NCBI RefSeq assembly: GCF_000381005.1
Contig: NZ_KB908392.1
Coordinates: 1 to 64,000, forward strand
Source of the DNA: Selenomonas bovis DSM 23594
Lineage (GTDB): Bacteria; Bacillota; Negativicutes; Selenomonadales; Selenomonadaceae
DNA: 64,000 nucleotides
Direction: 5' to 3'
Part shown: positions 11,271 through 58,640 of the stretch, piece by piece
Layout of the letters: the number at the start of each line of letters is the position of its first letter
How positions within the stretch are numbered: the stretch's first letter is position 1
Made by a program: the position numbers and the translations under genes
Notes under the pieces: generated by a model
What the model saw: only the letters and a program-made list of their open reading frames with translations
Told to the model about the DNA's origin: nothing
Database searches by the model: none

Positions 11271-11428
11271 TAATCGCGCTGCGCCTGCGGCTTGCGCTCT
11301 TGGGGATTTACATAGCAAACTCAACGCACAAACGTCCACTTCGTGGACATTGTGCGCCCGCCCTTGCAGTAAATCCAGCCAATCGCGCTGCGCCTGCGGC
11401 TTGCGCTCTTGGGGATTTACATAGCAAA
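11271..11428 (+). repeat. Family A palindromic repeats, one partial and one full copy in tandem
   Basis: A right-half copy (about 11271-11318) runs directly into a full copy (about 11311-11428); the CGCGCTGCGCCTGCGGCTTGC segment followed by CTCTTGGGGATTTACATAGCAAA occurs twice. The full copy contains the GTCCAC-TTC-GTGGAC hairpin. It fills most of the gap between the diguanylate cyclase gene and the serS terminator. Confidence 0.85.
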
Positions 11429-24561: not shown

Positions 24562-24668
24562 GTGCTATGTAAATCCCCAAGAACGCAAGCCGCAGGCGCA
24601 GCGTGATTGGTTGGATTTACTGTAAGGGCAATGCACAATGTCCACGAAGTGGACGTTTGTGCATGTAG
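24562..24668 (-). repeat. Family A palindromic repeat, copy 3 (inverted)
   Basis: This is the reverse complement of the element seen at 9.5 and 11.3 kb: GCTATGTAAATCCCCAAGA, the GCCGCAGGCGCAGCG segment, GGATTTACTGTAAGGGC and the GTCCAC/GTGGAC hairpin. The last 10-15 bases of the full copy are missing. It lies between two convergent genes. Its CTGTAAGGGC text is the uninterrupted counterpart of the copy at 54.3 kb. Confidence 0.85.
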
Positions 24669-24684
24669 TTTTCCATCCTCTGTC

Positions 24685-36922: not shown

Positions 36923-37084
36923 AGGAAGCACTGATTAAATGAAGTGCTCCGGATTTACGTGGATGCGCTGTATCTCTCTAGGAGACAAACCGCAGGCGTA
37001 GCCGAAGCTACGCTGAGGTTTGTCGACGACGAGAGGACAGCGCAGACGCGTGAAGACGGAGTGCTGAATTAATCAGTGCTTCCT
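36923..37084. mobile_element. Family B MITE, copy 1 (about 162 bp)
   Basis: The 16-bp terminal inverted repeats are AGGAAGCACTGATTAA (left) and its complement (right). TA dinucleotides flank both ends (36921-36922, 37085-37086). The inside is one long imperfect palindrome with core GCGTAGC-CGAA-GCTACGC. It has no coding capacity. Related copies are at 54299-54461 and 58479-58640. TA target and size suggest mobilisation by an IS630/Tc1-mariner-type transposase; that is inference. Confidence 0.88.
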
Positions 37085-37086
37085 TA

Positions 37087-37172
37087 AGGAAACGCTGATT
37101 AATAGTTGAACCGCGCATCCACTTTATCCACTTCAAGTAAGTGGAAAAATCTTGCATTAATCAGCGCTTCCT
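37087..37172. mobile_element. Short family B derivative (86 bp) abutting copy 1
   Basis: The ends AGGAAACGCTGATTAA and (complement of) AGGAAGCGCTGATTAA match the family B termini with one mismatch. The interior is different and shorter and holds a CCACTT...AAGTGG hairpin. It shares the TA at 37085-37086 with copy 1; the right flank is GA, not TA. Confidence 0.75.
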
Positions 37173-54240: not shown

Positions 54241-54506
54241 ATGCAAAATTCCAAGAACGCGAGCCGCAGGCGCAGCGCGATTGGCAGGAAATCCTCTAGG
54301 GAACCGCTGATTAATTCGGCACTCCGTCTTCACGCGTCTGCACTGTCCTCTCGTCGTCAACAAATCCTCAGCGTAGCTTCGGCTACGCCTGCGGTTTGTC
54401 TCCTAGAGAGATACAGCGCATCCACGTAAATCCGGAGCACCTCATTTAATCAGCGGTTCCCTAAGGGCGGGCGCACAATGTCCACAAAGTGGACGTTTGT
54501 GCATAT
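54241..54506 (-). repeat. Family A palindromic repeat, copy 4, split by a MITE
   Basis: The left part (54241-54296) carries CCAAGAACGCGAGCCGCAGG; the right part (54464-54506) carries GGGCGGGCGCACAATG and the GTCCAC/GTGGAC hairpin. Together they match the inverted copy at 24562-24668, with a 163-bp MITE inserted at the TA of the element. Confidence 0.85.
54299..54461. mobile_element. Family B MITE, copy 2, inserted in a family A repeat
   Basis: Perfect 16-bp inverted termini GGGAACCGCTGATTAA (54299-54314, complement at 54446-54461) are flanked by TA on both sides (54297-54298, 54462-54463). The interior is the reverse complement of copies 1 and 3 with small differences. The uninterrupted family A text has a single TA at this point. 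Confidence 0.9.
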
Positions 54507-54510
54507 CGTT

Positions 54511-54600
54511 TGCTGTGCAGGAAAATCTTCCTGATCTCGTCGCCCATCTCGAGCGTCGCGTCCTCCGCGCAGGTCTCGCGGAAGGTGTCCGAACTGAGGT
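54511..54600 (-). pseudogene. Fragment of an Rpn-family nuclease gene
   Basis: About 85 bases closely match an internal part of the adjacent intact gene (about 54925-55010). The minus strand translates to SDTFRETCAEDATLEMGDE followed by IRKIF, against YTFRETCTEDATLEMGDE in the intact protein. The fragment abuts the intact gene's stop codon. It is a remnant of a second, diverged copy. Confidence 0.85.
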
Positions 54601-55421
54601 TAATTGGTCGCGAGCTTCTGAAAACGCTCCTTCAGATGATCCTCTGACATGCCGACCGCAGCCGCGGCGTCTTTCAGACTCAGAAGGTTCGCGGCGACGA
54701 GTGACTTCAATGCTTCCAACCGGCCTTCTTCGCGGCCGCGTTCTTCACTTCTGCGCAGTTCCATGTAGTAGGTCATGTACTCCACCTTCATTTCCTTGTT
54801 TTCTTTCGCAGTTTCTACGGCACTAGCAAATGTTTCAGTGAATTTTCCTTTTGGTGCTTTGCCCTCGATGTAGTCGAGGAGAGCGGCGAGGTCGCGGTCG
54901 ATGCCCTCGCGGCGCCCTTTGCTGTTCAGGAAGATTTTCGTCGTCTCGTCGCCCATCTCGAGCGTCGCGTCCTCCGTACAGGTCTCGCGGAAGGTATACT
55001 GGCTGAGATTCCGGTCAAAGGGATCAAACGTGCAAATAAAGATGATATAGGTCTTCCGCAGCTTTGTATAGAACTCGCCTCTGTTGAGCACGTCCATGTC
55101 CATCATGGCCTGATAGTAACGCGTGCGCTTAGGAAGCTCGGCAGGGTCGGCGTAGTTGGTTGTCTGCATCTCGATGTCGTAGAGGACGCCCTTGTCGTCT
55201 TCGACGTAGACGTCAAGGCGCACACTTTTGCTGTCGCGACGAACGCGGATGTCTTTTTCGGTCTCCGGGAACATGATTTTCCGGATTTTGATGTGCAGGA
55301 CTTTCTCGATGAAACGCTTGCAAAGGCGTTTCTTGCGCATGACTTTCTGAAAGATGAAGTTGTCCGCGATGGTCAGGTTTTCCCAGATCTTATCGGCCTC
55401 GCGCCGCGTCATTTCCTCCAT
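54600..55421 (-). CDS. Rpn family nuclease (PD-(D/E)XK, recombination-promoting type)
   Basis: This 273-aa protein is of the PF12784-like Rpn/transposase_31 group. It shows NFIFQKVM near residue 25, the nuclease core RLDVYVEDDKGVLYDIEMQ (D...E-x-Q, about 70-88), YYQAMMDMDVL and a C-terminal charged helix (RSEERGREEGRLEALKSL) with a short helix-turn-helix-like end. Family members are DNA nucleases whose biological role is uncertain. The ATG at 55421 has AAAGGAG 8 bases upstream. A fragment of a paralogue lies directly downstream. Confidence 0.87.
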   Translation of the reverse strand: MEEMTRREADKIWENLTIADNFIFQKVMRKKRLCKRFIEKVLHIKIRKIMFPETEKDIRVRRDSKSVRLDVYVEDDKGVLYDIEMQTTNYADPAELPKRTRYYQAMMDMDVLNRGEFYTKLRKTYIIFICTFDPFDRNLSQYTFRETCTEDATLEMGDETTKIFLNSKGRREGIDRDLAALLDYIEGKAPKGKFTETFASAVETAKENKEMKVEYMTYYMELRRSEERGREEGRLEALKSLVAANLLSLKDAAAAVGMSEDHLKERFQKLATN

Positions 55422-55631
55422 GAGCGCCACTCCTTTCTAGCTCAATTATACGCTGACAGGAATCCTGTTGGCAAGGAGATTCATTCGGGGGACTTCCGAT
55501 GAATAACAGAAGCGGCAGCGAAGCAAAATGCTCGGCTGCCGCTTGTCATCTTTTGCGTTTTTGGGGAAGTATACCGGGATATACTTGCGAAAGCAAGGAT
55601 GCAATCACAATCAGCGTTTCCTCGACGGTCG

Positions 55632-58478: not shown

Positions 58479-58640
58479 AGGAAGCGCTGATTAAATGAAG
58501 TACTCCGGATTTACGCGGATGCGCTGTATCTCTCTAGGAGACAAACCGCAGGCGTAGCCGAAGCTACGCTGAGGTTTGTCGACGACGAGAGGACAGCGCA
58601 GACGCGTGAAGACGGAGTGCTGAATTAATCAGTGCTTCCT
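58479..58640. mobile_element. Family B MITE, copy 3, at the end of a heptosyltransferase gene
   Basis: Terminal repeats AGGAAGCGCTGATTAA and complement of AGGAAGCACTGATTAA are flanked by TA (58477-58478 and 58641-58642). The interior is nearly identical to copy 1. The right end and its TA form the stop codon of the gene at 58640-59800. Confidence 0.9.

Follow-up and report, generated by a model that had tools for sequence, protein, structure and literature searches.

The split repeat and its empty site

A copy of one repeat (family A) at positions 54241-54506 of the first 64,000 nucleotides of contig NZ_KB908392.1 of Selenomonas bovis DSM 23594 (this whole stretch is hereafter called the window) is split by a second repeat (B), which raises the question of which transposase placed B there, which target it duplicated and what B itself is. 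A MITE is usually regarded as the dead remains of a single insertion sequence, and the Correia/NEMIS and RUP elements are of IS630 type with TA duplications. The initial annotation had assigned this insert, too, to an IS630/Tc1-mariner transposase with TA as its target.

Family A is an abundant repeat of ~100 bp, with at least 40 scored hits, and also occurs in tandem arrays that repeat every ~108-109 bp. Several copies come after a T run (window 24571-24670 and 11272-11418; loci L160, L164 and L179). As annotated, one copy is intact at 24571-24670 (+) and another is split, at 54296-54464. The split copy reads CCTCTA (54293-54298), then 163 bp (54299-54461), then TAAGGGCG from 54462 (whole reading 54293-54469). 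The perfect 16-bp inverted ends described for the insert, GGGAACCGCTGATTAA, were seen at 54299-54314 (+) and 54446-54461 (-), and TA was present at both flanks. Sites resembling the B end with at most 3 mismatches numbered 9 in the window, against 0.41 expected, and none of 100 shuffles reached 9. An ORF of 276 aa, which we take to resemble an Rpn-type PD-(D/E)XK nuclease, adjoins the locus (54600-55430, -).

We aligned family A copies of this genome with the split copy after removal of B. The alignment contained 30 loci (two in the window), and three pairs of rows each represented a single copy within a tandem array, leaving 27 distinct copies; only full-length hits were used, drawn from 40 scored of 113 candidates, so that the count of A is a lower bound. 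All 27 distinct copies were without B. The exact empty form of the filled site, GGAAATCCTCTAAGGGC with one TA, was present in an intact copy elsewhere in the genome (L170, C10:56333-56430); it is a better empty site than TTTACTGTAAGGGC, which had been quoted before. Because L170 has the same local variant GGAAATCCTCTAAGGGC as the split copy, B entered an existing A copy, and the earlier view that A is older than B at this locus was borne out.

In the alignment, the left part of the split copy spans 54241-54295 (+) and the right part 54465-54506 (+). Family A sequence lay within 30 bp of B on both sides only at the window copy (1 of 62 B copies), and on one side only at two others. As a MITE insertion, the event is ordinary. 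A 2-bp TA duplication fits the flanks of the window copy exactly, and a 4-bp reading gives CTAG/CTAA, with 3 of 4 bases equal. Since this copy, taken by itself, is also compatible with TA, the whole B family was needed to decide the length of the duplication.

Ends and target duplication of the B family

We scored 40 of 127 candidate B copies in the genome and paired convergent ends in the fetched loci, which yielded 80 elements; 62 of 150-180 bp with both flanks were used, and 18 were set aside because their length differed or a flank was cut. The 62 full copies measured 158-161 bp (48 copies) or 176-178 bp (14 copies). Counted from GGAA to TTCC, an exact 4-bp duplication was found in 44 of the 62 (1000 shuffles: mean 11.1, maximum 21), and duplications of 1, 2, 3 or 5-10 bp occurred in 0-2 copies each. 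Position by position, the 4-bp flanks agreed in 57, 55, 56 and 56 of 62 copies. The exact words included TTAA (20), TCAA (4), TAAA (4), TTAG (4) and CTAA (3), and 14 of the 44 had no central TA (TCAA, TTGA, TAAA, TTTA, CTTA, CCAA). YTAR is therefore a preference in B duplications, not a rule. The proposed TA flanks held in part across the genome, with a central TA on both sides in 34 of 62 copies; as the target itself, TA was contradicted by the exact 4-bp duplications, above all by the 14 without it.

The limits of the element also had to be moved, since the 62 full copies place its ends at GGAA...TTCC and not at the 163 bp between the two TAs. Element B of the window is a 161-bp MITE (GGAACC...GGTTCC; 54300-54460, +), and its identity as a MITE stood, the element being gene-less and multicopy. 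Its left terminal inverted repeat, of 15 bp and of IS5 type, occupies 54300-54314 (+) and the right one 54446-54460 (-). The target was CTAA, of which the right copy persists at 54461-54464 and the left copy, at 54296-54299, is now CTAG (no strand applies to either).

Two further full copies lie in the window, at 36924-37083 (-) and 58480-58639 (-), both flanked by TTAA/TTAA. The former is followed by an 84-bp element with B-type ends (37088-37171, no strand assigned; right flank TGAA), and the two share a single TTAA. Several more such head-to-tail pairs were found in the genome, as expected when an element inserts into the duplication left by another. The copies lie between genes: none of 42 copies with 500-bp flanks was inside a long ORF by simple ORF picking. 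Identity among the 48 copies of ~160 bp was 75-100%, with a median of 88%. The 14 longer copies form a second subfamily of 176-178 bp with the same ends (G000 C2:34341, C2:128721, C5:91626, C21:13050 and others). Longer elements combine B-type ends with another interior, at C49:298-529 (232 bp, TTAA/TTAA) and C26:26160-26426 (267 bp, TAAA/CTAA) of the same genome.

A 27-bp form consisting of the ends only was present in 4 exact copies (L268-L271; G000 C1:128950, C8:80781, C10:68124 and C19:10497). The flanks of three were read (C1, C8, C10), and two had exact 4-bp duplications. We read this form as a junction of the left 21 bp with the final 6, the expected product of a deletion between TCAGC repeats; such elements may be scars of recurrent deletion or else mobile units of very small size. 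Outside this genome, B homologues were found in 43 of 189 genomes of the family, the window's own included, and were 94-95% identical in some other genera. B had no match among phage and plasmid records, and the element of genome G051 had none among plasmids.

Relation to IS5-family elements

We searched 60 genomes for B-type ends (19 bases, at most 2 mismatches) and found them in 21, the own genome included, with 0-1 hits per strand and genome for the reversed pattern. One locus of the window's family, L071, is a complete insertion sequence of 1263 bp flanked by TTAA/TTAA, with the same type of ends, GGAAnCnCTGATTAA, and a 333-aa transposase. This protein matched NF033581, 'IS5 family transposase', with 318 bits (cut-off 140), and also PF01609 and PF05598. 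Among loci encoding relatives of it (the best 80 of 587), 68 of 80 had both B-type ends at no more than 3 mismatches in 15, and the reversed-pattern control had 0 of 80; at 4 mismatches the figures were 71 and 9 of 80, hence the stricter threshold. Exact 4-bp flanks were found in 39 of the 68 two-ended loci (re-dealt flanks: mean 13.7, maximum 25). IS5 is described as duplicating YTAR (PMC10359306, in the portion available). By sequence comparison, the ends GGAAnCnCTGATTAA are those of IS5-family elements with YTAR-like targets.

In the own genome, the sole match to the L071 transposase was a relic of 34 residues, YYGLAKNHDMFMILFASANLYLCSMSGR, corresponding to residues 296-329; it sits in a 465-bp element with the same ends as B and TTAA/TTAA flanks. 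A complete transposase of the L071 type was not found in this draft of 75 contigs, and such a copy has presumably been lost or lies in assembly gaps. Two DDE_Tnp_1 hits of the own genome, L061 and L062, were considered as helpers and rejected, as neither was surrounded by a pair of B-type ends; L062 had one such end outside the gene. The motif GATAAA occurred in the MITEs and in at least one insertion sequence end in Selenomonas massiliensis and in genome G025, and GATTAA in the own genome and in L071. The ends of B-type elements thus seem to follow the local insertion sequence.

B shares with the IS5 (YTAR) group of the IS5 family the terminal repeats GGAAnCnCTGATTAA, a 4-bp YTAR-like duplication and, through the elements with these ends, the transposase profile NF033581; it differs in having no transposase gene and in an interior unmatched in the 80 IS5 loci, although not every MITE is expected to take its interior from the helper. 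B was most likely moved by an IS5-type and not an IS630-type enzyme, as far as mobilisation can be judged from sequence. That B is a MITE of IS630/Tc1-mariner type which duplicates a 2-bp TA is very improbable: the exact TA on both sides of the window copy and the one TA of its empty site would fit, but the 4-bp duplication is exact in 44 of 62 copies and lacks a central TA in 14 of these, the ends are common to IS5-group elements, and DDE_3 (PF13358), the only profile used in the search for an IS630-type transposase, had no match in the genome. The assignment of the locus is thereby corrected from IS630/TA to IS5/YTAR. We propose that an IS5-family transposase acting in trans would have cut out the non-autonomous B and inserted it into CTAA of an existing A copy, that 4 bp would have been duplicated, and that the left copy would afterwards have changed to CTAG. 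At the window site, a counterpoint is that one of the four bases is not the same in the two 4-bp copies and that the TA duplication is exact.

A strand-specific hairpin core

We aligned the interior of B from one element per genome in 15 genomes, after leaving out 5 of 20 elements as too different. The conserved core of the window copy is at 54318-54443; it is assigned to the minus strand, which folds best, and the covariance-model match is written on the plus strand. On the minus (reverse complement) strand, the alignment gave 62 pairs at -91.4 kcal/mol with 96.5% of cells paired, and 26 of the 62 pairs showed two-sided changes (25 by an alternative count). Many core positions on this strand swap among G-U, G-C and A-U. 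None of 500 shuffles was as good on any of five measures, these controls leaving the kinship among the 15 sequences in place, and a slid alignment was 37-45% paired. The plus strand gave 43 pairs at -39.7 kcal/mol, with 16 pairs two-sided. An early idea taken from the plus-strand count, that absent G-U pairs pointed to a DNA-level cause, was dropped, as the minus strand with its 62 pairs is the right one. The core of B is predicted to form a covarying hairpin of ~160 nt.

The strand difference was consistent. The window copy folded at -102.2 kcal/mol as the minus strand (161 nt) and at -74.3 as the plus strand (163 nt). When the elements were oriented by their sequence, the better fold was that of the minus strand in 20/20 elements, 48/48 own copies and 13/13 chosen distant elements, and DNA energies favoured the same strand in 20/20, 48/48 and 13/13. 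Among all examined loci of other genomes, taken with a fixed length and 14 of them from the window's family, the minus strand was better in 51 of 54, against 26 of 53 control pieces; the three exceptions were plasmid loci, so that 3 of 8 plasmid loci lacked the difference in the expected direction. The unpaired words GCGTY, CTYG, CTGCG and CCTTG recurred in the core. An Rfam scan over the core of the own copy and of distant elements revealed no family at gathering score; the weak matches overlapping B were MIR918 (25.8 bits, gathering 268) and sR60 (15.6 bits, gathering 50).

The core in distant genomes and plasmids

Of 398 genomes in the own phylum, 9 were matched by a covariance model without the ends: besides the window's genome, these were three others of its family and five from outside its class. 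Covariance model R2 is weak (15 pairs), since the distant sequences align poorly. A second, broader model matched 9 of 38 genomes chosen for holding IS5 relatives, and 29 had none. Selenomonas massiliensis and Centipeda periodontii had at least 92 matches each; 2-10 each were found in a Pyramidobacter MAG (Synergistota), a Lawsonibacter MAG, Ruminiclostridium, a Gallionellaceae MAG, a Burkholderiaceae MAG and two Roseateles. The core thus occurs in other Bacillota, in a Synergistota genome and in Pseudomonadota. In the Gallionellaceae MAG, a match to the Rfam sRNA sX9 at gathering score (44 bits; L326, 1709-1785) lies near a core-bearing element.

The ends around the core varied. Distant elements ended in GGGACTATCAAG, GGACCTGTTAAG or GGGCGTGT (mostly adjoining TA); in GAACCTGT with TAA/TAA or TTA/TTA; in TGTCGCAAACC or TGTGGTGTCCC, each with CTAG/CTAG; or in GGACCCTCTGC with CTAG/TTAG. 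The Pyramidobacter elements have IS5-like ends, GGAGACrCTGATTAA. In L295 and L296 (genomes G210 and G008) the core lies within perfect ends GGGCGTGTTGATTAA, not GGAAnCnCTGATTAA, and G008 also has IS5-type ends. No convincing inverted ends were seen in 4 of 16 loci of the first distant set (L298, L300, L309, L314), and a script found none in 2 of 28 loci of the second (L324, L351). No helper insertion sequence for ends of the GAACCTGT type was seen in the fetched loci of two genomes.

Distant full-length elements were mostly ~160 bp (mean 159.6, sd 3.5 for the 13 chosen, from which four of the 8 plasmid loci, of 89, 101, 102 and 132 bp, and other rows were left out). Some loci measured 89-141 bp, among them L305 and L311 with 124 and 141 bp. 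The ~55-bp centre of the core was 77-87% identical in plasmids of Cupriavidus, Comamonas, Mitsuaria, Variovorax and Martelella, and all plasmid loci lay between listed genes of an incomplete gene table. It is the middle of the element, rather than its ends, that is kept across very distant bacteria.

Possible roles of the core

That the folded middle turns up in distant bacteria between differing ends suggests that this part of the element has a role of its own. B would be one of a wider set of elements, mostly of ~160 bp, that share a covarying hairpin core and differ in ends and duplications, and a folded single strand equal to the window minus strand, more likely RNA than ssDNA, would be under selection and would serve the element, not the neighbouring gene. 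As a whole, the explanation by an IS5 transposase in trans, a 4-bp CTAA duplication and a selected folded core appears highly probable to us.

Relative to neighbouring genes, B lay in one orientation 13 times and in the other 15 times in 28 tandem settings; this lack of bias makes it unlikely that the core regulates the adjacent gene. Of the Centipeda copies listed (62 out of at least 92), 36 pointed with the leading strand, with switch points estimated from 20 samples, which gives no clear sign of lagging-strand dependence. With neither bias, nothing points directly to a transcript or to ssDNA of the lagging strand. We would give action as RNA about one half of the weight, as ssDNA about one third, and neither the rest. 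One-strand G-U pairing speaks for a folded RNA, but the DNA energies have the same sign.

We raise only tentatively, with a chance that we put at about a third, a superfamily of bacterial mini-transposons across phyla, built around one conserved core of up to ~160 nt that folds in a strand-specific manner as RNA or ssDNA and persists as the ends are exchanged or co-evolve so that different transposases serve them; it would be a parasite of several transposon groups and not the remnant of one. Selection of the core as folded ssDNA or as a cruciform, recognised for instance by a second recombinase or by the transposase complex, and not as RNA, appears rather unlikely: the DNA energies that favour the minus strand in every set and the lack of orientation bias to genes agree with it, but the many positions that switch from Watson-Crick to G-U pairing and back on a single strand are best tolerated by RNA, and no clear replichore bias was seen in Centipeda. 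Long hairpins are prone to arm-to-arm correction by template switching, and the frequent two-sided changes would fit a functionless hairpin kept solely in that way; such correction predicts perfect, strand-symmetric arms, however, whereas conserved internal loops and one-strand G-U pairs persist across phyla, and we regard this origin as improbable. Slightly more doubtful still is that the core is an internal-deletion remnant of IS5-type elements, the MITEs arising repeatedly by deletion and the core having no role. The shared ends and the internally deleted forms in the own genome (the 465-bp relic and the 27-bp scars) speak for it, but the core profile matched 0 of 80 IS5 loci, so that B did not arise from those elements by simple deletion, and the covarying pairs and unpaired words are kept as the ends vary. 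If the selected folded core is real, bacterial MITEs include a lineage that carries one, and this would account for the persistence of elements without genes and for their change of helpers.

Comparison with known small elements

The strand-specific core conserved across different ends is the part of this analysis worth following, its novelty being bounded by the scope of the literature and by the unfound helpers for other end types. No published description of the B core was found in the titles, abstract openings and text portions searched. The named bacterial MITEs NEMIS, RUP, Nezha and ERIC are, like B, short, gene-less and hairpin-forming with inverted ends (PMC3733652); the available portions of that article do not describe a core common to different ends, which B has.

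The MITEs, PATEs and SMRs of Haloquadratum resemble B in that MITE interiors are unrelated to the helper transposon, some have no functional helper in the genome, and elements are nested (PMC3119063); a folded core common to different ends is not described in the available text. The PATEs are unlike B in being IS605-related and without inverted ends, and B as a PATE, with near-terminal palindromes of the IS605 type, was rejected, because B is bounded by 15-bp inverted repeats and duplicates 4 bp of its target. CGTC- and GTAG-tagged REPs are also small structured repeats found in several phyla, and the CGTC REPs have no dedicated transposase; according to the portions available, they are palindromes of 20-40 bp (PMC3733652), whereas B is ~160 bp long, with transposon ends and target duplications.
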